A stretch of 38,574 nucleotides of DNA. Source: an uncultured Desulfuromonadales bacterium. Its GTDB lineage: Bacteria > Desulfobacterota > Desulfuromonadia > Desulfuromonadales > Geopsychrobacteraceae. Below are positions 10,012 through 31,191 of this stretch, one piece after another. The DNA lies in NCBI GenBank assembly GCA_947259715.1, contig CAMYNR010000167.1, forward strand, positions 37,282 to 75,855. The letters run 5' to 3'. The first letter of the stretch is position 1, and the number at the start of each line of letters is the position of its first letter. The notes under the pieces were generated by a model. It ran no database searches, was not told where the DNA came from, and saw only the letters and a program-made list of their open reading frames with translations. A program made the translations under genes and the position numbers.

Positions 10012-11196
10012 TCAATAGTCACGATGACAACCGCGACAGAGTTCGCTTTTCCTTTTTTTGATCAACCGATATTCAAGATCTGAACTGTGCGCCGAATGGC
10101 AGGACATACAACTGATGCGGCCATCGGGCAGCAACGGATAGTCGTCGGGTATGATCATTCCCGCTTTCGGAAAGACATTGACAGGGTGCGAGTAGCCACC
10201 CTGAAAACTAGAATGGCATTTATAGCAGACCCGGTTATTGGTATCCAGCTGACTTTTCAGCAGCGGATGGCCGGTACCGGCGGCAGCAACCTGGCTGTCC
10301 TCCTCCACCTCTTTCGAAGCTGGCTCAGTCGGGCGCTCGACTCCCAGCGACAGAGATACCGGCCGATCCGTCTTGAAGATCAGAAGGTAGTTTTGCCCCT
10401 GGCGATAAGCTTCGCTGGTGAGCTGAATATCTTCAGCCTCCCCTCCCTGATATTCTCGCCGTTCCTGCTGCTCCAGGTAGGTCTTCTCAGTGCTGAAGCG
10501 GAAAACTTCAGAAAGAGAGCGATTCCCGAAGAGATCCATACTTGCCACCTGAAACCGGTATTCCCGGTTGGCATCCAGACCCATCAGGATCATCTCGTGA
10601 TTGCGGGTCAATCTTCCGTCAGAACTGGAGGAATCCATACCGTTGAGACCATAAAGCACTTCGGAGTCGCTGAACTCATCTGTCTGCCAGCGAATCGTGA
10701 CTGTGGTTGAAATCCCGCGTCGCACATCGGCGGCCCGGACCCTGGTGATGACCGGAGGCCGCGACTCGGGCTTTTTGCCTTCCAGGGTTGTCAAGGCTGG
10801 CAATGCAAGCGGCTGCAAAGGGGATCTTTCCCGCCCGTCCCAGGCCCTATAATAAAGCGAGCCAACCAGCTTTTCCGCCGGGATCAGGACCCAGTGCTCG
10901 GTAGCAAAACTCTGGTTCCCTTTGAGCCAGGACAGCTGACTCAACCTTTCTTGTTGCACGACTTTTAGCGGCATATTTTTCTTTGCGGCGCCCTGCTCTC
11001 CTACAACATGGCAGGTAGCGCAATTCCCCGAAAGAAATGGCGCATGGACATAACGTTTGGCCTTGCCAGCGTCAATTGCCGGCCGATGGCAACGACTGCA
11101 ATCCACGGCCGGAATTCCAACTGCAAAGACGAGGGATGTTGAACCCAGGCCGGAGATGAAAAACACCAACCAGGCAAACAAATATAGTCTTTTCAA
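10012..11196 (-). CDS. Secreted pentaheme c-type cytochrome with central fibronectin-III-like domain
   Basis: Signal peptide; 5 CXXCH (CSRCH, CATCH, CYKCH, CMSCH, CRGCH) arranged 2+3 around 'PPVITRVRAADVRRGISTTVTIRWQTDEFSDSEVLYG...LDANREYRFQVASMDLFGN'. Confidence 0.88.
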   Translation of the reverse strand: MKRLYLFAWLVFFISGLGSTSLVFAVGIPAVDCSRCHRPAIDAGKAKRYVHAPFLSGNCATCHVVGEQGAAKKNMPLKVVQQERLSQLSWLKGNQSFATEHWVLIPAEKLVGSLYYRAWDGRERSPLQPLALPALTTLEGKKPESRPPVITRVRAADVRRGISTTVTIRWQTDEFSDSEVLYGLNGMDSSSSDGRLTRNHEMILMGLDANREYRFQVASMDLFGNRSLSEVFRFSTEKTYLEQQERREYQGGEAEDIQLTSEAYRQGQNYLLIFKTDRPVSLSLGVERPTEPASKEVEEDSQVAAAGTGHPLLKSQLDTNNRVCYKCHSSFQGGYSHPVNVFPKAGMIIPDDYPLLPDGRISCMSCHSAHSSDLEYRLIKKRKSELCRGCHRDY

Positions 11197-11323
11197 GGGT
11201 TAGCCTCTGCCCATGGGTAAAAAGAATAACTAAAAACAATTTGAATGAATTTTCTCTAACCAATCTAGCAAATTTATTCAATGATCACAAGCTAAGACAG
11301 ATCACAGAATGAGGATTTTTTGT

Positions 11324-11360
11324 TAAAAAAAAAGCCGACTCGAAAGAGCCGGCTTTTTTT
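11324..11360 (-). terminator. Rho-independent terminator downstream of the 11376-12461 cytochrome gene
   Basis: AAAAAAAAAGCCGACT-CGAAAG-AGCCGGCTTTTTTT stem-loop with flanking A/T runs, just 3' of the minus-strand cytochrome stop codon. Confidence 0.8.
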
Positions 11361-11375
11361 CAGGACAGGAAAACC

Positions 11376-12461
11376 TTATAGGCTGTTATCGCCATCCTTG
11401 GTGGTGTGACAACGGAAACATCCGGTATTTACAGCAGCACCAGTGGTGCCGGCTTCCATGCCAGCATAATCCCAGCGCAGCAGATCATCGTAAGGTGACC
11501 CGTGAGCGCGGTGGCAGGACACACAGGTGACGATCGCTTCGGCAGAGTAGTCGGCATTGGCAGCTGCGACCGGATTTGACAGGGCTACCGGTGCTTCAAC
11601 CGAGTAGCCACCAATGCCCAGGCCGTACTGCTGATACTCAGAAGAAGCAGGCAGAGCACGCATATCGATATCGGTCGGGTGGCGCAGCCAGGGGTTGCTC
11701 ATGTTGGTCGAAGGCAGCGCGTTGATCCCTTCAGCGGCGTGGAACTTACCGTGACACTCGGCACAAAGGTAGCTGATCGTGTCGGCCGAATCATTGCCCC
11801 CCTCGTTACGGGCAACGCCCTTGTAAACGTTGTGGTCGGTAGCGCTGTTGGTGAACTCCCAGTCTTCGTCCTCAACACCGACGATGCCGGAGAGGAAGCG
11901 GTAGCTCTTACCAACCGTAGAACCATCCAGGCCGTCAGAAGGCTCGTGGTGGGCACCCTGAACCGCGCCAAAAGTATCGAGCTCATCGTGATCCCCGTGG
12001 CAACCATAGGTCCCGGAACAGGACAGCTGCTGTGCCCAGGTGACGTCGTCGTTGACAGCGCCCGGATGGGTTTCGTCCCAACCCGGAGGGGTCTGACCAA
12101 GGGCCGCATCTGCAATGTTCAGCTCGTCAACATTGTGCCCTTTGGCATCATCGCCGTCGATAACCCACTTAAAAGAACCGCCTGCAGTGGTGTCAGTCCC
12201 ATAAACGGCTCCATCAACCTGAGGAATGACATTTGAGCCATTGTTGGTAATTGTAGCGCTGGCATGACAACCGGTGCAGTTGGCAGCGCGCAGCAATGCC
12301 GATGCAGGATCAGCGCTACCGTCCCAGCGCATAGGCTCGCCATTCTGGCTGTTATGCATGGTGTGACACTCAACACAGGGCGCCCCGGAAATGGCCGCCA
12401 GGGCATTGCCTGCGAACATGACCAGAGCCATACTCAGCAAAATAAACAGTCTTTTTTTCAT
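11376..12461 (-). CDS. OmcS-like extracellular multiheme cytochrome (5 CXXCH + 1 CX5CH)
   Basis: Signal peptide ending ALA; CVECHTMHNSQNG, CTGCH, CSGTYGCH (CX5CH), CAECHGKFH, VTCVSCHRAHGSPYDDLLRWDY, CFRCHTTKDG. Confidence 0.9.
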   Translation of the reverse strand: MKKRLFILLSMALVMFAGNALAAISGAPCVECHTMHNSQNGEPMRWDGSADPASALLRAANCTGCHASATITNNGSNVIPQVDGAVYGTDTTAGGSFKWVIDGDDAKGHNVDELNIADAALGQTPPGWDETHPGAVNDDVTWAQQLSCSGTYGCHGDHDELDTFGAVQGAHHEPSDGLDGSTVGKSYRFLSGIVGVEDEDWEFTNSATDHNVYKGVARNEGGNDSADTISYLCAECHGKFHAAEGINALPSTNMSNPWLRHPTDIDMRALPASSEYQQYGLGIGGYSVEAPVALSNPVAAANADYSAEAIVTCVSCHRAHGSPYDDLLRWDYAGMEAGTTGAAVNTGCFRCHTTKDGDNSL

Positions 12462-12616: not shown

Positions 12617-13750
12617 TCAAATGCCATCCTTGGTGGTATGGCAGGCAAAACAACCACAGGGCTCTGCCCCCGAATCTTCCACCCCGGCATTACAGTCGTT
12701 CTGGTAGTCCCAGCGCAGCATGTCAGGGTATGGCGAACCGTGAGCCCGGTGGCAGGAGATGCAGGTCACCAGATCTTCACCGGGAACCACATCACTGGTA
12801 ACAGTGCCATCAACAGTCTGCTTGGCGACCGGCGCCAATGGATTATAGGTGGTGTAACCGGAGTATTCCCGGTCCGGATCAGAGGGCAGGACCACATCCG
12901 AAGGATGGCGAATCCAGGTTCCGGCGGCCGAACGCATGCCGTCACCGGCGTTGGGACCATGGTGGAAGCGTGCATGACAGCCGGAGCACATCTCGCCGAT
13001 GCTGTTATTGGCCAGGGTGGTTGCCGTCTGATAGTTCTGGGTGGTGCCCTTGTAAACGTTGTGCTGGGTCGGGCTGGGGTCCTGTTCCCATTTGGGGTCC
13101 TCGACCCCGATCACGCCGTCGGCAGCCAGGTCCTGGAACATGGTATTGCCAAGAAAACGGTACCAACCATCACCTTCGCCGGTCACTCCCGCGACGCCAT
13201 CATCGGCGTGATGAGCCTTATTCGCCAAATGACAACCTTCGCAACCACCAGCGGCGGTTGAAAGAGTGAAATGGCAATTGTAGCAAGTGCTGCTGGTCGC
13301 CACAGGCCCTAAACCGCCGGGTGCGCCATCATCGCTGTGAGCAGCATCGATATCAGCGATACCGAAAACATTATGCCCGAAGGCATCGCCCTGAGAAGCG
13401 ACCCAGAAGAAGTTACCACCGGCCAGAACCGAGTTGCCCGACCCGTTGGCCGGGTATTGCAGACCGCCACCCGGGTTGTAAACCGAGGGAACCTGAGAAT
13501 CGCCGAGAGTGTAAATTGTCTCCGAACTGCCCGGGTTGGAATGGCAGCCGACACAGTCGGTTTTCAGCAGAGTCGGCATTGCGCTCTGCAACTCAACGCC
13601 GCGAAATTGCACCGGCTGGCCATTTTGGCTGTTGTGCATGGTGTGACAATTGACACAGTCACCCTTGACCGCCGCCCAGAGCGGATTTGTCAACAGCATG
13701 GCTAAACCGAACCCGGCCAGAGCCATAACTTTTAAACGCACGATATTCAT
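12617..13750 (-). CDS. OmcS-like extracellular multiheme cytochrome (7 CXXCH)
   Basis: Signal peptide, CVNCHTMHNSQNG, CVGCH, CYNCH, CEGCH, CSGCHARFHHG, VTCISCHRAHGSPYPDMLRWDY, CFACHTTKDG. Start set to the internal ATG preceded by GGAGGTAG. Confidence 0.9.
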   Translation of the reverse strand: MNIVRLKVMALAGFGLAMLLTNPLWAAVKGDCVNCHTMHNSQNGQPVQFRGVELQSAMPTLLKTDCVGCHSNPGSSETIYTLGDSQVPSVYNPGGGLQYPANGSGNSVLAGGNFFWVASQGDAFGHNVFGIADIDAAHSDDGAPGGLGPVATSSTCYNCHFTLSTAAGGCEGCHLANKAHHADDGVAGVTGEGDGWYRFLGNTMFQDLAADGVIGVEDPKWEQDPSPTQHNVYKGTTQNYQTATTLANNSIGEMCSGCHARFHHGPNAGDGMRSAAGTWIRHPSDVVLPSDPDREYSGYTTYNPLAPVAKQTVDGTVTSDVVPGEDLVTCISCHRAHGSPYPDMLRWDYQNDCNAGVEDSGAEPCGCFACHTTKDGI

Positions 13751-13764
13751 CCTAACTACCTCCG

Positions 13765-13787
13765 TATTGCCGCAGCCTGCAGCAATA
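13765..13787 (-). promoter_or_regulatory. Leader hairpin next to the Shine-Dalgarno of the 7-heme cytochrome
   Basis: Minus strand TATTGCTGCA-GGC-TGCGGCAATA: 10 bp stem with one G-U and a 3-nt loop, 1 nt from GGAGG. Confidence 0.6.
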
Positions 13788-13846
13788 TAGATAGACGTCA
13801 ACAGAACTCTTAATCAATTAATCTTTCAGGGTTCAGGGGGAAAATT

Positions 13847-13973: not shown

Positions 13974-15371
13974 TCAATCCAGAAGAACAATAGCAGTTCC
14001 TTGACCAGCCAAGGGAACTGTTTTTCGCAAGAACTGCCCCGGCAGGTCGACGACCGACAGTTGCGGCTGACTCGCGCTTAACACATAAATGGCCTGGCGC
14101 AGTTGCGAAACCGCCATCTCGGAAGGCGAATCTCCGGCAGGGATTCTGCGAAATGAAGTCTCTTGCCCCGGCACCAGCACCGAGAGGGTAGCCCCGCGCT
14201 GATTGCTGACATACACTGCTTGCGGGCTGACCGCAAGCAGTTCGCTCGGCTTGAGTCCGACCGCAACCCGGGCCAAGAGCCTGCCGGTCTGATACTCATA
14301 ACTGGCGACAATATTGGCCGCCTGCTCAACCACCAACAATGAGCCTGCGGTGTAGAGCAGATCGCTCACCTGCTGACCGACTGGAAAGGTTTTCTGCACC
14401 GCTAGGGATCCAGCACTCAAGATACTGATCTGATGGGCTTTCGGCGCAACAACCGCCAGACGCTCAGGGACCTCCGGGATAAGGGCAATCTGCTCAGGTC
14501 GATAACCGACCCGCTGCTTGGCGAGGACCGATCCGGTCGCCAGATCGACTTTTAACACCAGACTGCTGACGGCGTCGGTGACATAGGCATTGCTTCGATC
14601 CGCGCTCAACACAAAGTGTTCCGGAGCGACTGTCCCCGGGAGCGCAATCTGCCCAATCAGCCTGGCTTTGATGCAATCATAAACAAAGATTGAGCGGTTG
14701 CCGGGGCTTAACACGTAAAGCTTGCGCAAGCGTGAATCAAGCTGTAAGTCACCGATCGGACCGGGCACAGCAAAGGAGGCGACAACTTTATTATGATCGG
14801 TCCGCAGCAGGTAGACCGTCGCCAGGTTCCGGCAGGCGATATAAGCCAGGCCGGTGCTCAACTGGATCCGCTGCGCCCAGGCAGAAAACCTCGGCCGGGC
14901 AAATGCGCCCTGGCCCCGCTGACTCTCCAGTGACCAGTCAACAAACAGACAGCGGCTCTGTTGGCTTTCCAGCAGCAAAGGCTCAGCCAAGCTCAGTTCA
15001 ACCATCTCGCTTCTGCCCTCGGGGGCCACCGGCAAGCCATCGATCGACAAATCCTTCAGCTGAAAACGTATCCGGCGATGTTCCCCTGTCGGCGCCAGGG
15101 CGACGCCAAGCAGCTGTTGCCCACGGCTTTTCTTTCCATCGACCTGGACCGGCGCAATCCCCAATTCGACCCAGACACCATCCTTTTGGACGGCAAGGTT
15201 TTCAAGTATAAAGCGCCCTCCACCAGAGGCTGTTCCAGAAGAGGAGAGGTAGACCGTCAGCAGGGCTTGCCCTTCGCTTGGGACAGGCTCATGCAGCGGT
15301 TGCAGCTGAGGTACTGAACAGTTGCAGAGCAGCAGAAAGCTCAGCATAAATATAAGTCTGGTCAATATCAT
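13974..15371 (-). CDS. Lipoprotein with DUF4382-like N-terminal region and YVTN-type beta-propeller
   Basis: Signal with candidate lipobox LLLCNC; C-terminal repeats such as 'KLYVLSPGNRSIFVYDCIKARLIGQIALPG', 'NAYVTDAVSSLVLKVDLATGSVLAKQRVGYRPEQIAL' and 'AVYVSNQRGATLSVL'. Confidence 0.78.
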   Translation of the reverse strand: MILTRLIFMLSFLLLCNCSVPQLQPLHEPVPSEGQALLTVYLSSSGTASGGGRFILENLAVQKDGVWVELGIAPVQVDGKKSRGQQLLGVALAPTGEHRRIRFQLKDLSIDGLPVAPEGRSEMVELSLAEPLLLESQQSRCLFVDWSLESQRGQGAFARPRFSAWAQRIQLSTGLAYIACRNLATVYLLRTDHNKVVASFAVPGPIGDLQLDSRLRKLYVLSPGNRSIFVYDCIKARLIGQIALPGTVAPEHFVLSADRSNAYVTDAVSSLVLKVDLATGSVLAKQRVGYRPEQIALIPEVPERLAVVAPKAHQISILSAGSLAVQKTFPVGQQVSDLLYTAGSLLVVEQAANIVASYEYQTGRLLARVAVGLKPSELLAVSPQAVYVSNQRGATLSVLVPGQETSFRRIPAGDSPSEMAVSQLRQAIYVLSASQPQLSVVDLPGQFLRKTVPLAGQGTAIVLLD

Positions 15372-15410
15372 AATTCCCTTTACAGGAGCCTCCACAGTCT
15401 GCACCCGCGG

Positions 15411-16781
15411 CTAGAACGTCCTGCGAACGCCCCCTTCTGGTGCCGGTATCCGTTTGCCGTTCGGCAAGATTCCCGGGTTCTCGGCGTCGACATAGCTGCC
15501 ATGCCCATGGCAATAGCCGCAGCCGATCGCCTGCACCTCGCCAGCTACGTCATGACAGCGAACACATTGCGTGCTGTCGCCCGGCGGATAGGGTCGATCC
15601 GCGGCGCTATGGTGCACGGTCTCCCAGCGATTGATCTGCTGGCTGTTGCCGCTCCCCGCGCTTGCAGCATCATCAGCATGGCACTGTCGACAGAGGTAGC
15701 CCAAGGAGGTCGATCCGCTGCCCGCACTGACCTTGCCCCGCAAAGCCGAACCATTCACGCCGCGGCGAATCAGGCGGGCATTCTGCGACCCATGCGGCTC
15801 GTGACAATCGCTGCAGGCCAACAGATAATCGACAAACTGATGACGCGGATCGTCATATGGGGCGACCGCTTGCAAACTTTGAGTAAAGGCATTCATGCCA
15901 TGCTTATCACCTGAAAAGGGGGAATCGCCCCCCTGGGCCGCCCAATCAACCCGCACCACCGACCTTGCCAGGGTCGTCGAGTAAACCGGCTCTGCGTGGC
16001 AACGCAGACAGAAGCTGTTGTAATCCGGAAGTTGCGAACCATCCGCGAAAGCGACCTGAACGCCACCCGGCTCATAGCCGCCGGATAGACCGGCCGACAG
16101 GGGAGGCTGATAGCGACCAGCATATCTGGCCATGGTTTCCTCGGCCTGGTCACCCCAGAGTTCATCCGGCTCATCCGGTAATGAGATGGCACTGAATTCA
16201 GGGTTTGCCACATGGGCGCGGTTGCGTCTGGCACGATGGGAGTTGTGGCAGGCGCTGCAAGGTGATGAATCCTGGCCAAACCCCGGAAAACGCTGGGCAT
16301 AATTCCAGATGTCATAAAGATTATGGTAGGAACTCTCCAGGCCACCAGCCGGCTGATTGAAGGCATCCAAAATCGACAGCGGTCCACCGGTCGTCAATCC
16401 ACCAAAATTGCGCGAATAGTCAAAATTGCCCATCGCAGCGGCTCCTGCCTGAAGAGAACCGACCGAGGTATGGCAGGAAAAGCAGAACAGGTCATCCTGC
16501 TGATAGGGACCAAGCTGGCGCTGCCGGTTGAAGTTAACCGCATACAGTGAAGTCCCTTCGGCTTGTCCAATAGATCTGGCCAGCGCTTTGTCATGGCAGT
16601 GGCCACAGCTGCCGGTGGCTCGAGGCGCACTGCGCTGCCCGGTCTGATCGAGACGCCTGACCCCGAACTGCGGATCGCCGTGGGCCGAGTCCCGGTAAGA
16701 TCCGGCCTGCAGACTGCTCAGCGGAGCTGTTATGGCAATCAGCAGCAGACTGATGATAAGGCCGTTGATGGATTTCCTCAT
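15411..16781 (-). CDS. Secreted octaheme c-type cytochrome
   Basis: Signal peptide; 8 CXXCH (CGHCH, CFSCH, CSACH, CLRCH, CSDCH, CRQCH, CVRCH, CGYCH). Confidence 0.9.
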   Translation of the reverse strand: MRKSINGLIISLLLIAITAPLSSLQAGSYRDSAHGDPQFGVRRLDQTGQRSAPRATGSCGHCHDKALARSIGQAEGTSLYAVNFNRQRQLGPYQQDDLFCFSCHTSVGSLQAGAAAMGNFDYSRNFGGLTTGGPLSILDAFNQPAGGLESSYHNLYDIWNYAQRFPGFGQDSSPCSACHNSHRARRNRAHVANPEFSAISLPDEPDELWGDQAEETMARYAGRYQPPLSAGLSGGYEPGGVQVAFADGSQLPDYNSFCLRCHAEPVYSTTLARSVVRVDWAAQGGDSPFSGDKHGMNAFTQSLQAVAPYDDPRHQFVDYLLACSDCHEPHGSQNARLIRRGVNGSALRGKVSAGSGSTSLGYLCRQCHADDAASAGSGNSQQINRWETVHHSAADRPYPPGDSTQCVRCHDVAGEVQAIGCGYCHGHGSYVDAENPGILPNGKRIPAPEGGVRRTF

Positions 16782-16784: not shown

Positions 16785-17852
16785 CTAGTCCTTACTGGTA
16801 TGGCAGGCAGTGCAGCCATCGTTGCTGTTGAGATAATCCCAGCGCAGCAGCTTGTCGTAGGGGCTGCCGTGGCTGCGATGGCAGCTGACGCAGGTGACGA
16901 TCGTATCTCCCTGAAAACTGACCTGGACAAGGGGATTACTGACCACCGTGCTGGCGACCGGCACATCGACCCGATAACTCTGATTCGGCCCGCCGTAGCC
17001 ACGGACCTCATCCCCCGGGGCGGCATTGCCCAGATCGTATTCAACCGGGTGGCCGAACCAGTTGCCGGCCCCGCCGCTGTGGAAATCGTTGTGGCAACGC
17101 ATGCAGAGCGAGCTGATGGTCGAATTATCCATGCTTTGATCGACCCCTTTGTACTGGTTGTGAGCGGTCAAAGTCGGCGTTAATTCCCATTCCGGATCTT
17201 CAAACCCGGCAACCCCGATCAGCATGCGAAATCCTTTGGCGGGGACAGTGCCCGGATCGGTCAGGGCGCCATCCAAACCTTTATGATGGCCGCCAAAGAT
17301 CGCCGAAGCGGGGCTTTCTTTGCTGTGGGTACCATGGCAGCCATACACCCCGGCGCAGGTGACCTGCTGATTGACCGGCCAGTTCCCGTTCCCCGGGGTG
17401 CTGCCATCCGCCGCCGACAGGCTGCCGTTAAAACCGGGCGGCAAAGTTAAAAAGGGATCAGTACTGGCCAGGCCAGTGACATTATGCCCCTTGAGTGGGT
17501 CACCACTGGCCACCCAGTAAAAGTTTCCACCGGCCAGGGTATTGGTATTCTCTTCGGTTCCGGTGGCGGCATAGATCGGGGCGGTAGTTGACATGACGAA
17601 GGGGGTTTCCCCGCCCGCGTTGACGCCGGTATGACAACCGATGCAATCGGTATTCAGCAGGGCGTCATAGGGCCCCTGATCGCCCCATTCCTGCATCGCC
17701 TGGCCATCCTGACTGTAATGCATCGTGTGGCAACTGATGCACTTGCCGGTCACCGCCGCTTGCACCTGCGGCACTGCCAACAGCAATCCGACAACGGTAC
17801 AGAGGGACACGATTGCTTGCAGGAGATCTCGGATAGATCGGTATTCAGCCAA
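16785..17852 (-). CDS. OmcS-like extracellular multiheme cytochrome (5 CXXCH + 1 CX5CH)
   Basis: Signal peptide ending VQA; CISCHTMHYSQDG, CIGCH, CAGVYGCH (CX5CH), CMRCHNDFH, VTCVSCHRSHGSPYDKLLRWDY, CTACHTSKD; same layout as the 11376-12461 gene. Confidence 0.9.
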   Translation of the reverse strand: MAEYRSIRDLLQAIVSLCTVVGLLLAVPQVQAAVTGKCISCHTMHYSQDGQAMQEWGDQGPYDALLNTDCIGCHTGVNAGGETPFVMSTTAPIYAATGTEENTNTLAGGNFYWVASGDPLKGHNVTGLASTDPFLTLPPGFNGSLSAADGSTPGNGNWPVNQQVTCAGVYGCHGTHSKESPASAIFGGHHKGLDGALTDPGTVPAKGFRMLIGVAGFEDPEWELTPTLTAHNQYKGVDQSMDNSTISSLCMRCHNDFHSGGAGNWFGHPVEYDLGNAAPGDEVRGYGGPNQSYRVDVPVASTVVSNPLVQVSFQGDTIVTCVSCHRSHGSPYDKLLRWDYLNSNDGCTACHTSKD

Positions 17853-17878: not shown

Positions 17879-18772
17879 TCAGCGGGAGAAAATTTCGACC
17901 CGCCCGCTGCCTTCATCGACCACGCAGAGTCGCTCCTGCCAGTCAAAGAGTAAATCCGCACCATTCCACAGCTGGCCGGGCCGCTTGCCTTTGCCAAGAA
18001 AGGAGAACTTCTTCTCTCCATTGCGAGAAAAAACAACAACTGTCCCGGCATGCCGGTCAAGCAGATAGAATTGGCCGGATCGATCGACTTCCAGTGCAGA
18101 CGGAAACTCCAGGCCGGTAAGCTTGATCCGCTTTTCGACCTTGCCGGACAGGTCCAGCTGGAACACGCTGCTGGTCAAGGTATCCAGGCCCCAGAGTCGG
18201 TCATCACCAAGTTTAAAATCGGTAAAACCCTTGAAACCGGCATCGCCGGAAAAGCTTTGCACAACCTTGAGGTTGTCATCCAGCCGCACCACCTGCCCCT
18301 TCAGCCGGTCAAGGCCATAGAGCCGGTTGCGGCTGTCGACAGCTAACCTGGAGAGGAAAAGTTTACTGCCATCGGCATGCCGGGGGGTAAAGCGGCGGAC
18401 CTCCTTTTCACGTGGATTGATATAAAGCAGCTCATTGCTGGACCGCTCAACCACCCAGAGGCTACCGGTACCGGTGCGCACCATGGCCACCGGTCTCTTC
18501 AGCTGCCCTCCGGCGGTAAAGGCGCTGAGAAACTTACCCTCCTGATCAAAGGACACCAGTTGCCCGGCGGCGGCGTCAACCACGTAGTAGCGTTTGACCT
18601 GAGCATCGACCGCCACTGCCACCGGCTGTTCGAGACGCACGCCGGAGTCTTTCTGCGGCAGCTGGCGTAACGAAGACCAGGATCCCCCGGCCGCCAGAAC
18701 CAGCTCACTCCCGCCGAGCAGGGCGAAAAAAACCCCCAGGCTCAGCGCCATTTTTATCGAGTACATGTTCAT
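17879..18772 (-). CDS. Secreted NHL-repeat beta-propeller protein
   Basis: Signal peptide; repeats 'QPVAVAVDAQVKRYYVVDAAAGQLVSFDQEGKFLSAF', 'FPSALEVDRSGQFYLLDRHAGTVVVFSRNGEKKFSFLGKG'. Start set to the internal ATG after AGGAGA. Confidence 0.82.
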   Translation of the reverse strand: MNMYSIKMALSLGVFFALLGGSELVLAAGGSWSSLRQLPQKDSGVRLEQPVAVAVDAQVKRYYVVDAAAGQLVSFDQEGKFLSAFTAGGQLKRPVAMVRTGTGSLWVVERSSNELLYINPREKEVRRFTPRHADGSKLFLSRLAVDSRNRLYGLDRLKGQVVRLDDNLKVVQSFSGDAGFKGFTDFKLGDDRLWGLDTLTSSVFQLDLSGKVEKRIKLTGLEFPSALEVDRSGQFYLLDRHAGTVVVFSRNGEKKFSFLGKGKRPGQLWNGADLLFDWQERLCVVDEGSGRVEIFSR

Positions 18773-18788
18773 TCTCCTGAACCTTTTC

Positions 18789-21931: not shown

Positions 21932-23546
21932 GCAATTCCTGGTTCAGCTTTTTCCATACTGAACGATTCAGCTTAATGGTAGAACGATCTCGCAACTGCT
22001 TAACCAACCCTGCGCGCTGCTCCTGAAAACGATCCGCCTGCAATTGATTCTTGATCTGCCCCTTGACCTTCTCCAGGGGAGCGACCTCAGGTTCTCCCTT
22101 GCGGACCAGTTTGATAAACAACAGGTTGTCGCCATCCTTCACTCCGGCACTGACCTGTCCGGCGGAGAGCTTCCTGACCTCGGCCTGAACGACCGGCTGC
22201 AAATGCGCCAGGGGAGTTTTCTCAATTTGAATTCCAGCAGGGGAGATCGGCTCCATGACTTTAAAGAAATCTTCCCCCGATTTAATCCGTTTTTCCAGTT
22301 GTCTGGCCAGCTTCAACTCATTGGTTTTGACGACTGCTAATTCCACCATTCCCTGCCGTGAGTACTTATCCTGATGCTGCCGGTAATAGGCTTCGATATC
22401 GGCATCGCTCACCTCAACCTGTGGCTGGATCACCAGAGCTTCCAATTCTTTGATAAGGCGATGCTGAGAATAGAACTGAAAGGTGTGCTTGAGGGGCGGC
22501 TCTTCTTCATACCGCCTGGCCAGAGCTTCCATGCCGGTCAGGGTCTGAACCAGCAGATCGTTGACAATCCGCTGTTTTGCGTCCTCAAAATTTTCAGCGG
22601 ATTTAGTGGAATGACTGCGTTTTTTCCGTGATTTGACCACAGCTTCATAAATAAAGCCGGCGGGAACTTCCGTTTTGCCGATGATCACGGCTTGCTTGGA
22701 TTTAAGTTCATCATCTATGCCATCTGGTTGAATTGCGGCGATAACTTCATCATTGACCTGAACATTGTAATCAGCTTTAAGCTTTTCCAGCAGCTGGTAG
22801 GTCAGCTCGTATTCCTGCTGCTTTAAGGAGTCGCGGATCAGTTTCTGTTTGATGATTTCAAAGTCCGCCTCATTCCCCTCGCCCCGATCAAGGACCTCAA
22901 TGAAATACCAGGAATGGCCGAAGCTGGCCGGGCCTCCCGCTTCACCAGGTTTTAAGCTCATGGCCAGGGGTTGCAAGGATTCAGGAATCCGGGTGTAGCG
23001 CATTGGGCCGGTCGCCTCCATCTGCTCAACAACTCCCTGAAGGCCAGCTGTTTCGACGACCTGATCCAGTGGGGTGCCCTGGTCCATGTATTTCTTGATT
23101 TCCTGCGCCTGCTCTTCGTCAGTGACCGCCAGCATGCGCAGATTCAGGATCGGGGTGTAGCCCTCTTTGTACAGCTGCCAGAGTTCATCCCGGGTTGGTA
23201 TGGTTTTGCGCGCATCGACCTCTTCCCCCTTCAATTGCATCAGGGCCCGGACTTTCAAAAAGACCTCAAGCTTTTTCCGGTAGCTGGGGCTGTCCTGCAA
23301 CTGCATATCTCTGGCCTCCTGGGCCAGCAGCATCCAGTCGATGAATTCATCAGGGGATTCCTGTAAATTCATACCCGGTTCGCGCCATTCGCGCCACCAG
23401 TGCCGATAATCTTCCGGGGTAAACTCTACCCCATTGATGGTAACCAGCTCTTTGCCGCCAAACAATGCAGAAGCGTTGTCGACAGAGCTCAGCAGAACCA
23501 GCAAGGTGAACAAGCTGAAACAAATCGTTTTGATCTTTATTGACAC
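21903..23546 (-). CDS. Secreted parvulin-type (PpiC/SurA-like) peptidyl-prolyl isomerase with two modules
   Basis: Signal peptide, SurA-like N-terminal helical region, parvulin-like segments around 'ILNLRMLAVTDEEQAQEIKKYMDQGTPLDQV...FGHSWYFIEVLDR' and 'MVELAVVKTNELKLARQLEKRIKSGEDFFKV...GDNLLFIKLVRK'. Confidence 0.8.
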   Translation of the reverse strand: MSIKIKTICFSLFTLLVLLSSVDNASALFGGKELVTINGVEFTPEDYRHWWREWREPGMNLQESPDEFIDWMLLAQEARDMQLQDSPSYRKKLEVFLKVRALMQLKGEEVDARKTIPTRDELWQLYKEGYTPILNLRMLAVTDEEQAQEIKKYMDQGTPLDQVVETAGLQGVVEQMEATGPMRYTRIPESLQPLAMSLKPGEAGGPASFGHSWYFIEVLDRGEGNEADFEIIKQKLIRDSLKQQEYELTYQLLEKLKADYNVQVNDEVIAAIQPDGIDDELKSKQAVIIGKTEVPAGFIYEAVVKSRKKRSHSTKSAENFEDAKQRIVNDLLVQTLTGMEALARRYEEEPPLKHTFQFYSQHRLIKELEALVIQPQVEVSDADIEAYYRQHQDKYSRQGMVELAVVKTNELKLARQLEKRIKSGEDFFKVMEPISPAGIQIEKTPLAHLQPVVQAEVRKLSAGQVSAGVKDGDNLLFIKLVRKGEPEVAPLEKVKGQIKNQLQADRFQEQRAGLVKQLRDRSTIKLNRSVWKKLNQELHEEETGNES

Positions 23547-24121
23547 TTAGCAACTCCCTTTTCAATCCAGTCGGTAATAATTTCTTGAGACATCCTGGCC
23601 ATCAGGCCAGTTATGGTTGTCACATTTCCAAAATGCATCGCTCTGCGATACTCATCTCCCCAGCGATGATGCAAACTCTGCAGGACCAGTTGGCCGCGCC
23701 GCACATCATAAAGTTTCAGCTGCATGGCGACAACCGGCACCGCGCCCGGACCCCGGCCAAGGTCCATGCCGACCTCGGTCAGTCGGCCTTGAACCACTGC
23801 ATCGATCTGCAGCTTTTCCTGCAGGTCGGCATAGTGAAAAGATTCCAGCAGATCGCCTGGCAGCAAGCGGTGCCGGAGCCGGAACAGACTGACGTTCCCT
23901 TCCGGTTGCACCTCAAAGCGGCCTGAGTTAACCAGGGCGCCATGAAAAATTCGCTGGCCGGTCACACCGGCCTGGTCCGCGCGGGTCCAGTTGTCGAAGG
24001 GCAGCACCGCGACCCGGCAGACGCTTTCCGGCTCTGCGTTCGCCATCACCCGGGTCTGCAAAGCCCCCTGCCCGGCGCAGCCGGTCAGCAGGAGGAAAAG
24101 AAAAATAGCAAAGCTTCGCAT
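23537..24121 (-). CDS. CsgG/GNA1162/LpoB-like lipoprotein
   Basis: Lipobox LLTGC; 'CRVAVLPFDNWTRADQAGVTGQRIFHGALVNSGRFEV...QIDAVVQGRLTEVG...MQLKLYDVRRGQLVLQSLHHRWGDEY'. Confidence 0.68.
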   Translation of the reverse strand: MRSFAIFLFLLLTGCAGQGALQTRVMANAEPESVCRVAVLPFDNWTRADQAGVTGQRIFHGALVNSGRFEVQPEGNVSLFRLRHRLLPGDLLESFHYADLQEKLQIDAVVQGRLTEVGMDLGRGPGAVPVVAMQLKLYDVRRGQLVLQSLHHRWGDEYRRAMHFGNVTTITGLMARMSQEIITDWIEKGVAKCQ

Positions 24122-25614
24122 CAGAAATCCGGCACCCAGGACTCGGCCTCTTGCTCTTCGACGGCCTGCTGTTCAACTTTCATCAACAATTCTTTACGGG
24201 CAATCCGGCGGCGGTTCCCAAGTTCGTCAACCCCGTCGAAGCTCAAGTAAACGGCATTCTCATCGCCAAGCGGTTTAAACTCTGTTTCTGTCGGCAGTCG
24301 CTCCCCGTCAACCTGTAGCAGGATCTTTCCCTGGCCCGATTTCAGCTGCGCCTGCCAACTGCGCAAAGAGAACTCGGCGCTGACCTCATTGAGACTGAGA
24401 AAATACTTGCCAGCGCGCTGACTGACCCGCGCTTCAACCAGCGGCGCGTTGCGCTGCATGACGACTTGCCGGGTAGCGCTGGAGCGGTTTCCGGCCAGAT
24501 CCCAGACCTGCAGGGTAATCTCGTAGGGACCATCGGCCAGATAAAAACCGTCAGCGCCATGCCCTTCCCAGACCAATCGCTCCGGCATGTCGCCTTCATA
24601 TTCGTTACTGACCAGCAGCAGGCCGTCCTCGTTGCGAATCTCCAGGCCCCAGCGCCCCATCGGCTTTAAGTCGGCGATCCGGGGCAACAGCAGCAAGCTG
24701 TCGCGGAACACCCGACGACCATCGATCTGCTGACCATTCTTCAGTTCGATGGTCAACCCGGGCGGATTATTGATCACCTGGTATGAGGCGATGTTTTCCA
24801 CCCGCTCGGCGAAGCGACCGCTGCCCCACTCGAGGATTAAATCGATCGGATACTGCCCTTCCTGCTCCGGAGCAAACCACTTCCCGGAATAGATACCGGT
24901 GCGCGGATTGGCCTGCAGCAGACTGCGTCCCGCTTTGCTCTCAGCGAAAATCCGGGTTGGCCGGGCATCGAGAAAGCGGATCTTCAGAGTCGCGTCGATC
25001 TGCTGGCGCCCCTTGACATAGGCAGGAAACAGCTGCATGCCGGTCAGCTGGTAATCGCGCCGGTCAGGCACCCCTGTCTCTGCCACCTGCCCCTCCAGGC
25101 GGAGCAGTAATTGGTCCAAAAGGGGGCCGGACAGATCATCGATGGTCTGCGGCTGTCCCAAGGCCAGGAAAGTCACCTTCTCAGCTAAGCTGGTGGCCCC
25201 GGTCTCTGACCAGATCGGCATTCCGGTGACCGTATCCAGAGCGGTAAAGGTCAGCCCCAGCTGTGGATTGTCGCCACCGATTTCAGTGATAGTGCCCAGC
25301 AGGGCGACGACACAGCTCAGGTCTTTACCGATCTTCTTAATCAGAAAGCTGTCCAGGTAGCTGAAAGAGCGCAGCTTATTGGCGCTCATGAACTTGACCA
25401 CCTGGTCCTGAGGCACCATCTCCACCCCGAGCCGCTGGAGGGAGTTGGCGACAACCTGGGTGAATGGCAGATTGATCCCATTCACCCCTTGGCTGAAGTC
25501 AGCCATCGGCAGCAGCGCGACCCGCTGGGCCTGGGCGGGAGCATTTGCCAGACCGAGCAGCAGAATCGAGCAGACAGCGAAATGCAGTGCTATGCGCTTA
25601 ACAGCAATCAGCAA
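24121..25614 (-). CDS. Secreted protein with CsgG-like N-terminal domain and C-terminal beta-rich (FlgD/Ig-like) region
   Basis: Signal peptide; 'RVALLPMADFSQGVNGINLPFTQVVANSLQRLGVEMVPQDQV...CVVALLGTITEIGG...FTALDTVTGMPIWSETGATSL', then beta-rich segment with 'DGPYEITLQVWDLAGNRSSATRQVVM'. Confidence 0.68.
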   Translation of the reverse strand: MLIAVKRIALHFAVCSILLLGLANAPAQAQRVALLPMADFSQGVNGINLPFTQVVANSLQRLGVEMVPQDQVVKFMSANKLRSFSYLDSFLIKKIGKDLSCVVALLGTITEIGGDNPQLGLTFTALDTVTGMPIWSETGATSLAEKVTFLALGQPQTIDDLSGPLLDQLLLRLEGQVAETGVPDRRDYQLTGMQLFPAYVKGRQQIDATLKIRFLDARPTRIFAESKAGRSLLQANPRTGIYSGKWFAPEQEGQYPIDLILEWGSGRFAERVENIASYQVINNPPGLTIELKNGQQIDGRRVFRDSLLLLPRIADLKPMGRWGLEIRNEDGLLLVSNEYEGDMPERLVWEGHGADGFYLADGPYEITLQVWDLAGNRSSATRQVVMQRNAPLVEARVSQRAGKYFLSLNEVSAEFSLRSWQAQLKSGQGKILLQVDGERLPTETEFKPLGDENAVYLSFDGVDELGNRRRIARKELLMKVEQQAVEEQEAESWVPDF

Positions 25615-25617: not shown

Positions 25618-26190
25618 CTACTCCTCGATGGTCCCCAGCAGCCGCTGAGCGAGTCGATAACTCACCTGGTTGATATCTGCGCCGACAAAGCCGAACATGC
25701 GGTTAAAGGTGCTGTAGCCGGTTTCGCTTCCGGAACTCTGCCAGATAATCTGACCGGTTTTCACATCGATCAGGCGCAAGGTGGCGGCGACCACCGGATA
25801 GCTGTAATTGCCATTCTGCCGCTCACTGAAATCCTCCACCGCACCGGCGATATAGGCCTGGACGCTGAGTTCCTGGCCGAGCCGCTGCGCAGTGGCGAGA
25901 TCGAGGGTTTCCTGATCCTTACGCACCAGTTCTTCGCGCAGAAAGCGTTGCGCCTCGCCCTTCTCCACCACCTCAAAGAGACCGCGGCGGAGAATTTCCG
26001 TGGTCACCGCATCCTGAAACCGCTCATGAGCAAAGGTTTCGTCGGTGTGGTTTTCCAGCGGCAGAACCACTACCCGCTTTACGTAGCCTAGCCCCAGAGT
26101 CTCTGCGGCATAATGCGCCGGACCGGACCGGGCGCAGCCGGCAATGCCCAAGGTCAGGAGCAGCAAAAGTAAGACCAGGTATCTTTGCAT
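25618..26190 (-). CDS. CsgG/GNA1162/LpoB-like lipoprotein
   Basis: Lipobox-like LGIAGC; 'VKRVVVLPLENHTDETFAHERFQDAVTTEILRRGLFEVVEK...VQAYIAGAVEDFSE...ATLRLIDVKTGQIIWQSSGSETGYS'. Confidence 0.7.
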   Translation of the reverse strand: MQRYLVLLLLLLTLGIAGCARSGPAHYAAETLGLGYVKRVVVLPLENHTDETFAHERFQDAVTTEILRRGLFEVVEKGEAQRFLREELVRKDQETLDLATAQRLGQELSVQAYIAGAVEDFSERQNGNYSYPVVAATLRLIDVKTGQIIWQSSGSETGYSTFNRMFGFVGADINQVSYRLAQRLLGTIEE

Positions 26191-26276
26191 GTCATTCACC
26201 CTCTTTCCAACAAGATTTATCCGCTTTAGCGTACTCTTGGTTCTCGTCACTCATATCTCTCAAAACGCCCCGGCTC

Positions 26277-26307: not shown

Positions 26308-26322
26308 AGCCAAAGTCCCGGA

Positions 26323-28422
26323 TCAATAATTGGCATTCACGGTTGAAGATAAAGCCCAGCTGTCGCCACCTTCGGAGGAGATGAAGCTGCCGGTCGTCTG
26401 CCAGGACAGATGCCGGGTGATCAGCCAGCTCAGGGTCGAATTGTACTGCTCGCTCTCTTCATCGCCAAATTCATAGGCCAGACCGAAAATCGCCTGAAGC
26501 TTACGGGAGGCGAGCAGGGTCGCATTGCCAGCCAGAGTATTCTGGTTGGTCTCTTCGTCACGATTGAAACTGCCGCCGAGCTGCAGGACATCCGACGGGC
26601 GGTAATTGACGCTCACCCCATAACGGGTTGAGGCATCGCTGATGTCCGCCTCATCAACCGGTCCATCTGTGCTGTTCTCAACATAGCTGGCATTCAGATT
26701 GACATCCAGCTTCGGTGACAGCCGGGCATTGGTATTGAGAGTCACCCCCATGGTCGTCGTCTCGCCGCCGCTCTGGTTTTCCGTGCGGCTCCAACTATTG
26801 AGCAGGCTGGCAGTCAAATCTGGATAGATGATCGCGTTAAAGATCGCGTTGACCGAGTCACTGGTGGTTTGCCGGGCAGCGCCGTCGTCCGATTCGGTCC
26901 GGGTATAGCCGAGGGAAAAATCCAGCGTCCGGAGCAGGGCTGTGTTCATCGAAGCGGCATAGCTGCGGGTATTGCGATCTTCGGCATCCTCGATCTTATC
27001 GATGCTGTCACTCAAACTGAGAGTAAAACTCAGCCGCTCGGTCGGAAAATAGCTGGCGCTGATCGATTGATTCAGCTGTTCGCTGTCCGGACCGCGGTTC
27101 TGCTCATTGTCAACCCGGCGGAAATTGTAGCTGACCTGCCAGCGTTCATTCGGCCGGTAGGTCAGGCCGATTTCGCTCTGGTGGCTGATGCTGGTCCGGC
27201 GAATGCTTACTCGCGGCGCGGCGGAGGTGCTGATCTCACCCGCCTCAATCTCGGTGACAAAGACCGGGTCAACCGAAACAATGCTAATATCGGAAACCGC
27301 TTTGACAAAGCGGCTGTTGGCAGTATTCAGCAGGTCAAGAACAACGACGGTGCGAAAATTGTCCAGCCGGTAGGTGGCGGGGATATTCGCCACCTGGGTC
27401 CAGCTGTTGCCATCGTCACTGGTATAGACCCGCCAGGAAAGCAGTCCTTGCAAGGCCAGGCTCAGCTCCCGATCCAGCAGAATCTGCAGGCGATCGACGG
27501 GTTGAAAATCAACCTGAACAGCAATATTCTGACTCAGCTGACTGCCGACTATATCAATCCCCGCGGAGGTGATCTCATCATTATCATTCAGCGCGCCGTT
27601 GCCTGCTAAGGTCCCATTGGCCGGGGTATCGTCCCCGCCCGAGAAAGCAAAGGAGATACTGACCGGCAGGAGAAAATCTCCCCCACCCGTGTTCGGCGTT
27701 TCAGTGACGGTTTCATTGTCCCGATACTGTTGGGAGGCGAAGACCGTCAGCGTTTCTGCGAAAAAGCTGCGTGAGTACTCCAACTGAGCCAGGTGCTCGA
27801 TGTTTTCTGTTGACGAGCCATCAAGCTGATCATCGGTCGTCGCGCTGCGAAAATCGTAGAGCATGGCAAAGTCGGACCACTCGTGCTCAATACTGCCGCC
27901 AAAATCGATCGATTCGGTATCCACCTGGCGTGGCGAACCGTCATCATAATTGTGACCCTGGTTAAAAAAAGCGCGCAGGGCAGGCCAATCCTCTTTCAAG
28001 GTGAAAAATGTCCCGCCCCAGGAATTGTCCGTGGTCGAGGGCGAGCCCTCCCGATTCACCCGATTCTGCGAGGCGCTCAGACCCAGGAAGAACAGGTCAT
28101 TCCGCGTATCAAGGGCAATCGATGGATTGATCGAATCGGTGTCGACCCCCTCCGACGGCAGATTTTCGTTGTAGCGCAGTGAGCCGGACAAGGTCATGAA
28201 CTGGCTCAACTGCTTATTGTAGTTCAGGGTATAGCTGTGGCTGAACTGCGAGGTCGACTCGATATCGCCACCGGTCTCCCGATAGGTCCAGTTCCCGGTA
28301 AACCCGAGCGGATCCCCGGCCTGCACCGGAATCGCCAGGGCCAATAGCAGGCACAGCCAGCAACCGAGCGGCAGCAAGCGCAACGCGGGATATGTGTCAG
28401 AACTGATCTTCAACATCGGCAC
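26323..28422 (-). CDS. Outer-membrane beta-barrel protein with a discoidin/F5-8C-like insertion
   Basis: Signal peptide, many alternating amphipathic strands (e.g. 'LTASLLNSWSRTENQSGGETTTMGVTLNTNARLSPKLDVNLNASYVEN'), C-terminal NANY; central 'LLSWRVYTSDDGNSWTQVANIPATYRL...NSRFVKAVSD'. Confidence 0.78.
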   Translation of the reverse strand: MPMLKISSDTYPALRLLPLGCWLCLLLALAIPVQAGDPLGFTGNWTYRETGGDIESTSQFSHSYTLNYNKQLSQFMTLSGSLRYNENLPSEGVDTDSINPSIALDTRNDLFFLGLSASQNRVNREGSPSTTDNSWGGTFFTLKEDWPALRAFFNQGHNYDDGSPRQVDTESIDFGGSIEHEWSDFAMLYDFRSATTDDQLDGSSTENIEHLAQLEYSRSFFAETLTVFASQQYRDNETVTETPNTGGGDFLLPVSISFAFSGGDDTPANGTLAGNGALNDNDEITSAGIDIVGSQLSQNIAVQVDFQPVDRLQILLDRELSLALQGLLSWRVYTSDDGNSWTQVANIPATYRLDNFRTVVVLDLLNTANSRFVKAVSDISIVSVDPVFVTEIEAGEISTSAAPRVSIRRTSISHQSEIGLTYRPNERWQVSYNFRRVDNEQNRGPDSEQLNQSISASYFPTERLSFTLSLSDSIDKIEDAEDRNTRSYAASMNTALLRTLDFSLGYTRTESDDGAARQTTSDSVNAIFNAIIYPDLTASLLNSWSRTENQSGGETTTMGVTLNTNARLSPKLDVNLNASYVENSTDGPVDEADISDASTRYGVSVNYRPSDVLQLGGSFNRDEETNQNTLAGNATLLASRKLQAIFGLAYEFGDEESEQYNSTLSWLITRHLSWQTTGSFISSEGGDSWALSSTVNANY

Positions 28423-28472
28423 AGCAGATCGTCAAACCCATCTCTCAAAAGACCAAGCAGCAATAAACAAAA

Positions 28473-29267
28473 TCAGTTCACCAGATTGTGCGGGCCAATA
28501 TGGCAATGGATGCACTGCGGGTAGGTTTCATGCAGTTCGTCAAAATGCGGCTGTCCATGACAGGTACGACATTTGGGAATGACCTTGTGCTGAAACTTGT
28601 GGCAATACACACAATTGAACTGGTGGTGTTTGGTCCGATTCTCCGAAAGCAGCACCGCCGGCCCGGGATGACAGGAGGCGCAGAAAGAAACCGGCACATT
28701 GTTGTCGTAGGCCACCTTCAGCGGCATGTGCGGACGGTGGCACTCAAGACAGTTGGCATAGCTCTGTGAATCCTGGTGCGGCTCGTGGCATTCCAGGCAG
28801 GTCAGAAATTGACCATGCTGCTGATGGCACTCCTTGCTGTCGAGCACCGAATGATTGCTCGGATAATTCAACAACTCCTGCCCCTGGTTGGGGTGACAGG
28901 TCATACAGGCAGGTCGAACCTGCGAAGCCCTGGCGAAATCGATATTCAACGGGCTGTGCGGCCGATGGCAGTTCAGACAATCCGGCGAACTGAAATGGGG
29001 ATTGCCGCCTGACTCATGGCACAGAGAGCACTCGGGGATGGCGTTGGCGCCCCGCGGCGGATGCTCCTGATGGCAATCAGTACAGCCGATGGCATCGCGG
29101 TGCTGTCCGCCAGCGGCCTCGATCTCGGCGATCTGACTGCTATGGCACTTTTGGCAGTCACTTGGCAGCAATTCCGGCGCGGCAGCAGCGCTCGCCACCG
29201 CTCCGGCAGCAAAAGGCAGCAGCACCAGTGAGACAAGCAGAGAGCTGGTTATGAAAAAGCTTTTCAT
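28473..29267 (-). CDS. Secreted 11-heme c-type cytochrome (plus one SXXCH variant motif)
   Basis: Signal peptide MKSFFITSSLLVSLVLLPFAAGAVASA; 11 CXXCH counted; extra S-K-E-C-H in register. Start set to the internal Met of the 28473..29354 ORF. Confidence 0.9.
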   Translation of the reverse strand: MKSFFITSSLLVSLVLLPFAAGAVASAAAAPELLPSDCQKCHSSQIAEIEAAGGQHRDAIGCTDCHQEHPPRGANAIPECSLCHESGGNPHFSSPDCLNCHRPHSPLNIDFARASQVRPACMTCHPNQGQELLNYPSNHSVLDSKECHQQHGQFLTCLECHEPHQDSQSYANCLECHRPHMPLKVAYDNNVPVSFCASCHPGPAVLLSENRTKHHQFNCVYCHKFQHKVIPKCRTCHGQPHFDELHETYPQCIHCHIGPHNLVN

Positions 29268-29289
29268 CCTCGTTGACCTTTTCCCACGG

Positions 29290-31191
29290 CTAAATCCGAT
29301 CGCGGCGATCGCGCGGATGGCACTGCATACAGACCTTGGCGACCCTCTGGCCATGACACTTCACGCAGAAATCCACCTTGATCACAGCTGCCGATTTGCC
29401 CTGAATAGTCGGGGCCGGCGCAGCGATCCGTTCCGGCGTGGCTGCGGCCGCAGTCGGCACAGGCAACAGAATTGTTTGCGCGTCCTGGCGCGGCGGATCT
29501 TGCGGCGCAGGAGCAGGCAAATCTTTCTTACTGGATTGAATTACAGCGGCACGAGCATTCGAGCGTGGCAGGGCGTGAATTGCAGAATGAACCTGGTCAT
29601 TTGGCGGCGCTATCTCAAAGAGCTGCTCTCCCGCCATTTCTTCCAAACTGGGGGTAACAACTTTGCCATCGGGGTGAATTCCTCCAGAATCTCTCGCTAG
29701 GCCTGACTTTCCTTCGTCAACTGGCTCAGCAACCGGTTCTTTCACGGGCAAAGCCGAGTCGGTAGCAGCACTTTGCGTGCTTTTAATTTGCAAATTATCT
29801 GCCACCGGTTCTCCGCCGGTTGACGCTGGGGTCTCCGACTGGGCAGCGGGAATCCGCAACTCGGTCGCCTCACCGCGGGTCTTCAGCAGAGCCGGCAGCA
29901 GCTCTTCGCTGCGCAACTGCTCCGCAACGCGATATCCTTCAAGGGGATCACCGTAGGGTCCCACCAGAACTTGCTGCCAGACCCCGCGGGCGCCACGATC
30001 GAGGGGTTGAATATGGACCGGGTAACCTTTGGAGCGCAGCTTATCGGCCAGCTGCTGAGCGCTGCTCTCATCGCGGCTGATCGAAGTCAGCACCAGATAA
30101 TCGCCTACCGCATCAGCCTGCAAATCGACATCGATATGCCCAATGGCGATCAACTCCGCTTCGGCGACCGGTTCTGCAGCGAAAGGCTCAGGCCGACCAG
30201 CCTGCCCGGCGATCCTTTCTCCTGGCTCGCCGTAAATCGGCGGCAGGCCGCCAACAAATTCAAAGACCTGAATCCGATGATTAAAGGTGTCTGCAACCAG
30301 CAGACGTCCCTGGCCATCAACGATAATGTCGTTCGGATAGTAAAACCAACCGCGCCCCTGCCCGAGGCCGCCGATTTCGAACAGATATTCGCCGCTGACA
30401 GCGTATACCGATACGGTGTGACGCTGATAATCGACCAGATAGACCTGGCGACGAAACTCATCGATAGCGATCCCGCGGGGCCGCGATAACTTACCCGGCT
30501 CCCCCCCTTTTTCGCCAAATTTATAGAGATAGCGTTCGTTCTGATCGTAAACGTAGACGCGGCCCATAGATTCACTGACAAAGTAGAGGCGGCCGGCGCT
30601 GTCGATGTCGATGGCCAGAATTGACGCCTTTTCTTTAACCCCCAACACTTCGTCAAGGGGCTCAATGGTGCGCAGATAGCGGCCTTGCGGATCAAGCACC
30701 ACGACCCCGCTGCCATTCTGGCCGACAACATAAAGATTTCCCGTGGTACCAACCACCATCGCCAGCGGGGAAAAACCGGGCAGGTTGGGGAAATAAATTT
30801 TTTGTCTTGGCAGAAAAGCGCCGTCGTAGACGGCAATATGCGGCCTGGGTTCAGTCTCGCTGGCGCCAAGGCAGACATAAAGCTTGCCATCCTTGAGGAA
30901 ACTGCCACTGATGCTGTTAAGGCCGCGACCGGCACCGATGGAGAGGTAGGGGAAAAAATCGGCGGTCAACACCACCAGCTTGTTTTTCAAAGGGCTGACC
31001 AGATAGATTTCATCTTCCAGCGGATCGTAAGCGAGGGAAGCGGGAAAACGGATCGGCAGGCCGGCCTCATCCTGGGTGATCAGTTTGACCGAGCGTATCG
31101 GTCTGACCTGCAGATTTTCTGTCCAACCTGCCGCAGTCGGCGAGCAGAACAGCAGGCAGAGCAACACACAGCCCAGGCGATAGACGGACAT
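29290..31191 (-). CDS. NHL beta-propeller - SPOR-like - C-terminal diheme fusion protein
   Basis: NHL repeats ('LSRPRGIAIDEFRRQVYLVDYQRHTVSVYAVSGEYLFEIGGLGQGRGWFYYPNDIIVDGQGRLLVADTFNHRIQVFE'), SPOR-like 'DYLVLTSISRDESSAQQLADKLRSKGYPVHIQPLD...WQQVLVGPYGDPLEGYRVAEQL', C-terminal CVKCH/CMQCH. Start at ATG 31191 after GGGGGAG. Confidence 0.85.
   Translation of the reverse strand: MSVYRLGCVLLCLLFCSPTAAGWTENLQVRPIRSVKLITQDEAGLPIRFPASLAYDPLEDEIYLVSPLKNKLVVLTADFFPYLSIGAGRGLNSISGSFLKDGKLYVCLGASETEPRPHIAVYDGAFLPRQKIYFPNLPGFSPLAMVVGTTGNLYVVGQNGSGVVVLDPQGRYLRTIEPLDEVLGVKEKASILAIDIDSAGRLYFVSESMGRVYVYDQNERYLYKFGEKGGEPGKLSRPRGIAIDEFRRQVYLVDYQRHTVSVYAVSGEYLFEIGGLGQGRGWFYYPNDIIVDGQGRLLVADTFNHRIQVFEFVGGLPPIYGEPGERIAGQAGRPEPFAAEPVAEAELIAIGHIDVDLQADAVGDYLVLTSISRDESSAQQLADKLRSKGYPVHIQPLDRGARGVWQQVLVGPYGDPLEGYRVAEQLRSEELLPALLKTRGEATELRIPAAQSETPASTGGEPVADNLQIKSTQSAATDSALPVKEPVAEPVDEGKSGLARDSGGIHPDGKVVTPSLEEMAGEQLFEIAPPNDQVHSAIHALPRSNARAAVIQSSKKDLPAPAPQDPPRQDAQTILLPVPTAAAATPERIAAPAPTIQGKSAAVIKVDFCVKCHGQRVAKVCMQCHPRDRRDRI

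Follow-up and report, generated by a model that had tools for sequence, protein, structure and literature searches.

Gene clusters of Geobacter and its relatives are the closest described systems to the locus analyzed here. In Geobacter sulfurreducens, an eight-gene block (GSU2500-GSU2493) has been tied to the maturation and secretion of the filament cytochrome OmcS, with GSU2495 encoding a protein of 26 hemes (PMC12977616), and roles have been assigned to OscH in folding, to OscE, OscF and OscG in secretion, and to OscD in morphology (PMC13194489). An operon of a 26-heme protein, a 16-heme protein, a peptidyl-prolyl isomerase (PPIase) and a six-bladed propeller was described earlier by Skennerton 2017 (PMC5539420), where Geobacter/Anaeromyxobacter and Desulfuromonas sequences fell into distinct clades and a single genome held two copies, and the oetABI cassette was implicated in interspecies electron transfer by Murali 2023 (PMC10553843). 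We investigated a stretch of 38,574 nucleotides ("the window") from an uncultured Desulfuromonadales bacterium (assembly GCA_947259715.1, contig CAMYNR010000167.1, positions 37,282 to 75,855), part of a metagenome-assembled genome (MAG) that is 77% complete. Judged from its genes, the cytochrome cluster in this window is of the published osc/oet type and belongs to a second osc lineage, separate from the OmcS/Geobacter lineage. What it adds to published work is this lineage, together with a substrate family peculiar to it and a heme-like motif that is non-canonical yet strictly conserved.

The cluster comprises 16 genes (g9-g24) among the open reading frames (ORFs) of the window, all on the minus strand (Table 1). 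Counting CXXCH motifs in the translated ORFs from position 10,012 upward yielded 5, 5, 7, 8, 5, 16, 26, 11 and 2, and none in the remaining listed ORFs of the window. The original prediction, made from the letters alone, had announced nine multiheme proteins with 85 such motifs, a count that we reproduced exactly. Its further inventory was largely borne out: the single parvulin is g18 (PF13145, 59 bits), the three beta-propellers are g24 and g15 (NHL type) and g12 (YncE/PQQ type) according to Pfam and NCBIfam, the diheme one being g24, and the outer-membrane barrel is g22, for which AlphaFold2 confidently predicted a large beta-barrel with an inserted domain (predicted local distance difference test, pLDDT, 83). 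The three proposed CsgG/GNA1162-like proteins fared unevenly. While g21 scored above the Pfam cut-offs of LpoB, CsgG and GNA1162 (CsgG, 26.5 vs 20.8 bits, with a higher score for LpoB), neither g19 nor g20 had a Pfam match; g19 joins the group through its paralogy to g21 (33% identity), and g20 is a weak case with marginal matches only (GNA1162, E=0.07). Short or overlapping junctions, also predicted, were found from g24 to g12 (overlapping or within ~75 bp) but not for g11, g10 and g9, each of which is preceded by a gap of 155-180 bp.

We compared the osc cluster of G. sulfurreducens (GSU2493-GSU2504) by its published description, and used for sequence comparison other Geobacterales clusters, recognized by an OmcS up to 73% identical to the segment in the Protein Data Bank (PDB). 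The latter are ordered as NHL, OmcS, hexaheme proteins, propeller, barrel, lipoprotein, a CsgG-like protein of ~390 amino acids (aa), PPIase, 26-heme, 16-heme and NHL, and hidden Markov models of the window-type proteins matched every Geobacterales core gene, in order. The window and osc clusters hence share a core kit standing beside OmcS-like cytochromes. They differ in that propeller g12 has moved downstream, the OscG position is expanded to g20 and g19, most substrates lie behind the block whereas those of osc lead it, the substrates carry CX5CH or seven CXXCH, and g9, g13, g23 and g24 are additional. At the OscG position, some canonical clusters (L160, L161 and L162, of G037, G077 and G020) encode a protein of ~1140 aa. 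The operons of Skennerton 2017 and Murali 2023, compared by description and standing outside our trees, have the same core and occur in similar taxa (Desulfuromonadales, Geobacterales, Desulfobulbia and Thermodesulfobacteria); their excerpted passages mention neither CX5CH nor a link between substrate type and lineage, both of which the present analysis adds. As the same core recurs in osc, oetABI and the Skennerton operon, the "own export and assembly kit" of the original prediction is a sound description of a cluster kind that had already been published.

To assess conservation, we compared 21 loci collected via g20, 15 MAG loci collected via a PPIase alignment, and 20 stretches drawn from other parts of the phylum. 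In the 43 loci with a window-type PPIase, spread over several classes, the eight-gene core stays together in the order barrel, lipoprotein, CsgG-like protein, lipoprotein, PPIase, 26-heme, 16-heme and NHL, with heme counts that hardly depart from 26 and 16; the co-conservation that had been proposed as a check on the prediction was thus present. Wherever a core gene was absent from a locus, it lay beyond the contig end or the fetched stretch, except in G179, the sole real gap, where no barrel neighbors the block. Outside the core, gene content is variable (g9-g14, g23 and g24), as would be expected had the cytochrome genes gathered by chance or in a lineage-specific manner with no common function. 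Yet a single core order runs through these 43 loci and recurs in the canonical lineage, which is separate, with the block placed variously in the genomes; this co-conservation already contradicts such a gathering, which we consider most improbable. Across the class, strong matches to the window-type PPIase (E<1e-77) were found in 29 of 277 genomes, every one belonging to the taxonomic order of the window.

Phylogenetic trees of the 26-heme protein (OscI), the PPIase (OscH), the lipoprotein (OscF) and the barrel (OscE) each separated window-type from canonical proteins, with a Shimodaira-Hasegawa-like approximate likelihood ratio (SH-aLRT) support of 100. The window-type core proteins form a sister lineage to the Geobacterales cluster proteins rather than being nested inside them. 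Six genomes (G023, G031, G037, G077, G085 and G189) carry both kinds, each as a single cluster that is complete or almost so, indicating paralogous systems kept side by side, and the type of the substrate cytochrome sorts with the type of the cluster.

These putative substrates, g10 and g14 (type A) and g11 (type B), are relatives of OmcS. A g10/g14 profile matched OmcS with E=6.3e-23 over positions 35-347 of 367, the next best match being at ~0.01, and, relative to the OmcS structures (PDB 6EF8/6NEF), this near-full-length homology retains CHTMH and most heme sites. The label "OmcS-like" given by the original prediction therefore holds as homology, but g10 and g14 belong to a separate family, with five rather than six CXXCH, CX5CH at heme 3, and the clade-specific invariant histidines H189, H190 and H231. 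Among 76 type A proteins, 73 have five CXXCH and three have six, and CX5CH occurs in all 76 (as CxGxxGCH in 74); type B proteins mostly have seven CXXCH and never CX5CH (0/18), and six is the number in almost all canonical OmcS/T/C proteins, none of which has CX5CH (0/50), these sets being assembled by similarity and not independent draws. In the tree, type B and canonical proteins form supported clades; a single origin is needed for type A, whose own branch is weak (54). Compared with OmcZ, which has eight hemes including one at CX14CH, and OmcE, which has four, the window cytochromes differ in heme count, and OmcE (7tfs) was matched with E=0.023 over a short stretch. The second histidine of CHTMH, at the position of OmcS His16, which we take to be the inter-subunit ligand of heme 5, is kept in 100% of type A and 94% of type B proteins. 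In the OmcS filament, one ligand of heme 505 is supplied by the neighboring subunit (PMC6584659). Type A or type B cytochromes were found in 33 of 395 sampled genomes of the phylum (E<=1e-50), the majority outside the class. One genome (G313, L189; a single contig of 2.54 Mb) carries a type A cytochrome paired with a type B one, and the stretch fetched from it contained no core block.

The CX5CH of type A, which reads C-A-G-V-Y-G-C-H in g14, aligns at the heme-3 site of OmcS (CSSCHDPH). Type B proteins have their CH in the same columns, with the first cysteine three residues nearer, giving the canonical CYNCH. The simplest reading is that CX5CH represents a heme-3 site moved in register, and we regard it as likely that it holds a covalent heme as the sixth site, in which case the CXXCH count misses one site each in g10 and g14. 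Type A proteins conserve 13 histidines in 76/76 and one more in 97%, with H189, H190 and H231 absent from the canonical proteins; six bis-histidine hemes need twelve, so these histidines would suffice. Alternatively, type A may have lost heme 3, its cysteines forming a disulfide and H173 serving as the distal ligand of a neighboring heme. In a MAFFT alignment, H173 does fall opposite OmcS H147 rather than the proximal H144, and CX5CH, or CXXXXXCH, was not mentioned in the literature searched, where other notations may escape. However, the two cysteines of the motif and its histidine are invariant across the 76 proteins, paralogue g11 places the CH of its CYNCH in the very columns of CX5CH, the 13-14 conserved histidines exceed the need of five bis-histidine hemes, and loss of heme 3 would interrupt an OmcS-like heme chain. 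Weighing these points, we find the heme-loss alternative rather unlikely.

We consider it probable that the second-lineage operon encodes the machinery for folding, exporting and anchoring polymers of extracellular cytochromes. By homology to the Osc system, g10, g11 and g14 would reach the periplasm by secretion and acquire heme, the parvulin-type chaperone g18 would assist their folding, the role assigned to OscH, and barrel g22 together with lipoproteins g19-g21 would export them across the outer membrane, in the manner of OscEFG. The subunits may then polymerize head to tail like OmcS, each presenting its conserved CHTMH histidine to the following one. The 26-heme lipoprotein g17, the 16-heme g16 and the 11-heme g23 could charge or anchor the filament base, and propellers g12, g15 and g24 could shape or dock it. 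More tentatively, though it is quite possible, these loci may define a second class of cytochrome nanowires that evolved separately and is spread through the phylum, with its own osc-lineage machine, sometimes beside the OmcS class, and with heme 3 on a previously undescribed CX5CH.

Several observations weigh against this proposal. The six CXXCH by which OmcS is defined are found neither in g10 and g14 (five plus CX5CH) nor in g11 (seven), and CX5CH could be a disulfide or the trace of a lost heme. For g14, AlphaFold2 gave a poor model (pLDDT 54.6) that lends no structural support. OmcS homologues are not to be presumed wire-forming (PMC12977616), the functions of OscD-H, for which Shen 2025 is the source, are taken from what later papers state (PMC12977616, PMC13194489), and our search found no experimental work on any second-lineage member.

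A different interpretation is that the block mainly forms an electron conduit across the outer membrane, the small cytochromes being surface reductases or shuttles rather than filaments. This follows Murali 2023 (PMC10553843), where the barrel with periplasmic and surface cytochromes is read as a conduit, and resembles MtrCAB, in which a large outer-membrane barrel also stands beside multiheme cytochromes. The barrel g22 is as large as MtrB, and MtrB (6r2q_B) gave the longest alignment among the VIA matches listed (463 residues) and the highest template modeling (TM) scores among the Foldseek matches listed; g17 has a lipobox. The cluster differs from MtrCAB in that g22 had no profile match to MtrB among solved structures and that, among g16, g17 and g23, only the repeat-rich g17 passed the DmsE/MtrA-type cut-off. 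Against the conduit interpretation, the Z score of 6r2q_B (16.4) is tied with those of ushers and porins, so that fold Z fails to single out MtrB among ushers and other barrels; fold comparison thus does not decide between an MtrB-like conduit and an usher-like exporter. To our knowledge, porin-cytochrome conduits do not usually include a PPIase or LpoB/CsgG-like lipoproteins, which speaks against this interpretation. The Geobacter counterpart block, moreover, reportedly governs how OmcS is folded and secreted (PMC12977616, PMC13194489), and we judge a primarily conduit function unlikely. As to the wiring of filaments to the cell surface, which the original prediction included, it would be inferential: for the 26-heme and 16-heme proteins and the barrel, Murali 2023 (PMC10553843) favors an electron conduit and later accounts a part in the assembly machine (PMC13194489, PMC12977616), and the sequences cannot decide between the two.

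Further features concern single proteins of the cluster. The inserted beta domain of g22 (residues ~249-399) is weakly similar to CBM32/discoidin folds and may bind surface carbohydrates. Counterparts of g23 have 12 hemes in most relatives, and g23 possibly represents the 11/12-heme, OmcX-related kind of Skennerton 2017 (PMC5539420). An NHL gene homologous to g24 stands first in the cluster of Desulfuromonadales relatives; the tail with two CXXCH recurs only in G151, the remaining relatives having plain propellers. In G085, G031 and G107, the pair of g9 (5-heme) and g8 (HAMP-like) likewise follows the canonical osc cluster. A scan for g20 homologues in viral contigs gave none.

The cluster is flanked by recN, nadK, secA, argJ, deoB and deoC, named from their translations and presumably housekeeping genes. 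In G085, of the same genus, the same neighbor genes bracket the cluster on both sides, and the guanine-cytosine (GC) content of the cluster does not stand out; a recent foreign or mobile island is therefore not supported. Promoter- and terminator-like patterns around g9-g11 were near shuffle level, and Rfam, searched for signs of regulation by a riboswitch, had no match in the window. The inner-membrane quinol oxidase, which the original prediction placed elsewhere in the genome, had no clear candidate in a NapC/NirT search of the 77% complete MAG: this returned one 181-aa match above the cut-off and a weak match within a soluble multiheme cytochrome. On contig C54 of the same MAG (L207), a soluble multiheme cytochrome adjoins an NHL propeller lipoprotein, forming another cytochrome-propeller pair.

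Table 1 Genes and motifs of the cytochrome cluster, in window coordinates.
Feature	Position	Strand	Description
g24	29290..31242	-	NHL six-bladed propeller, SPOR domain and C-terminal diheme tail; likely start near 31188
g23	28473..29354	-	11-heme cytochrome; likely start near 29267
g22	26323..28422	-	Large outer-membrane beta-barrel with inserted discoidin/CBM32-like domain (residues ~249-399); OscE/OetI equivalent
g21	25618..26250	-	LpoB/CsgG/GNA1162-like lipoprotein; OscF equivalent
g20	24121..25614	-	497 aa, N-terminus distantly GNA1162/CsgG-like; OscG-related
g19	23537..24121	-	Lipoprotein, paralogue of g21; OscG-related
g18	21903..23546	-	Parvulin-type PPIase/periplasmic chaperone; OscH equivalent
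g17	19955..21931	-	26-heme cytochrome, lipobox LLSAC; OscI equivalent
g16	18789..19958	-	16-heme cytochrome; OscJ equivalent
g15	17879..18877	-	NHL propeller, last of core block; likely start near 18772
g14	16785..17852	-	Putative filament cytochrome, type A (5 CXXCH + CX5CH)
CX5CH motif CAGVYGCH of g14 (residues 166-173)	17334..17357	-	
g13	15411..16781	-	8-heme cytochrome, optional companion
g12	13974..15404	-	Beta-propeller; homologue of Geobacterales pre-barrel propeller (OscD position), here downstream
g11	12617..13801	-	Putative filament cytochrome, type B (7 CXXCH; CYNCH at heme-3 site)
g10	11376..12461	-	Putative filament cytochrome, type A (5 CXXCH + CX5CH)
CX5CH motif CSGTYGCH of g10 (residues 148-155)	11997..12020	-	
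g9	10012..11196	-	5-heme cytochrome, fibronectin-like middle
g8	9427..9978	-	HAMP-like membrane protein, travels with g9

If these readings are true, ordinary CXXCH counts understate type A proteins by one heme each, and a covalent heme on CX5CH would widen the known range accepted by the cytochrome c maturation system. The combination of CxGxxGCH with five CXXCH offers a simple marker for the class, including in sulfate-reducing relatives with proposed interspecies electron transfer. In cells like those of G023 and G085, two nanowire assembly systems would operate in parallel, each with subunits of its own, and the specificity of nanowire export would become directly testable through substrate swaps between the paralogous machines.

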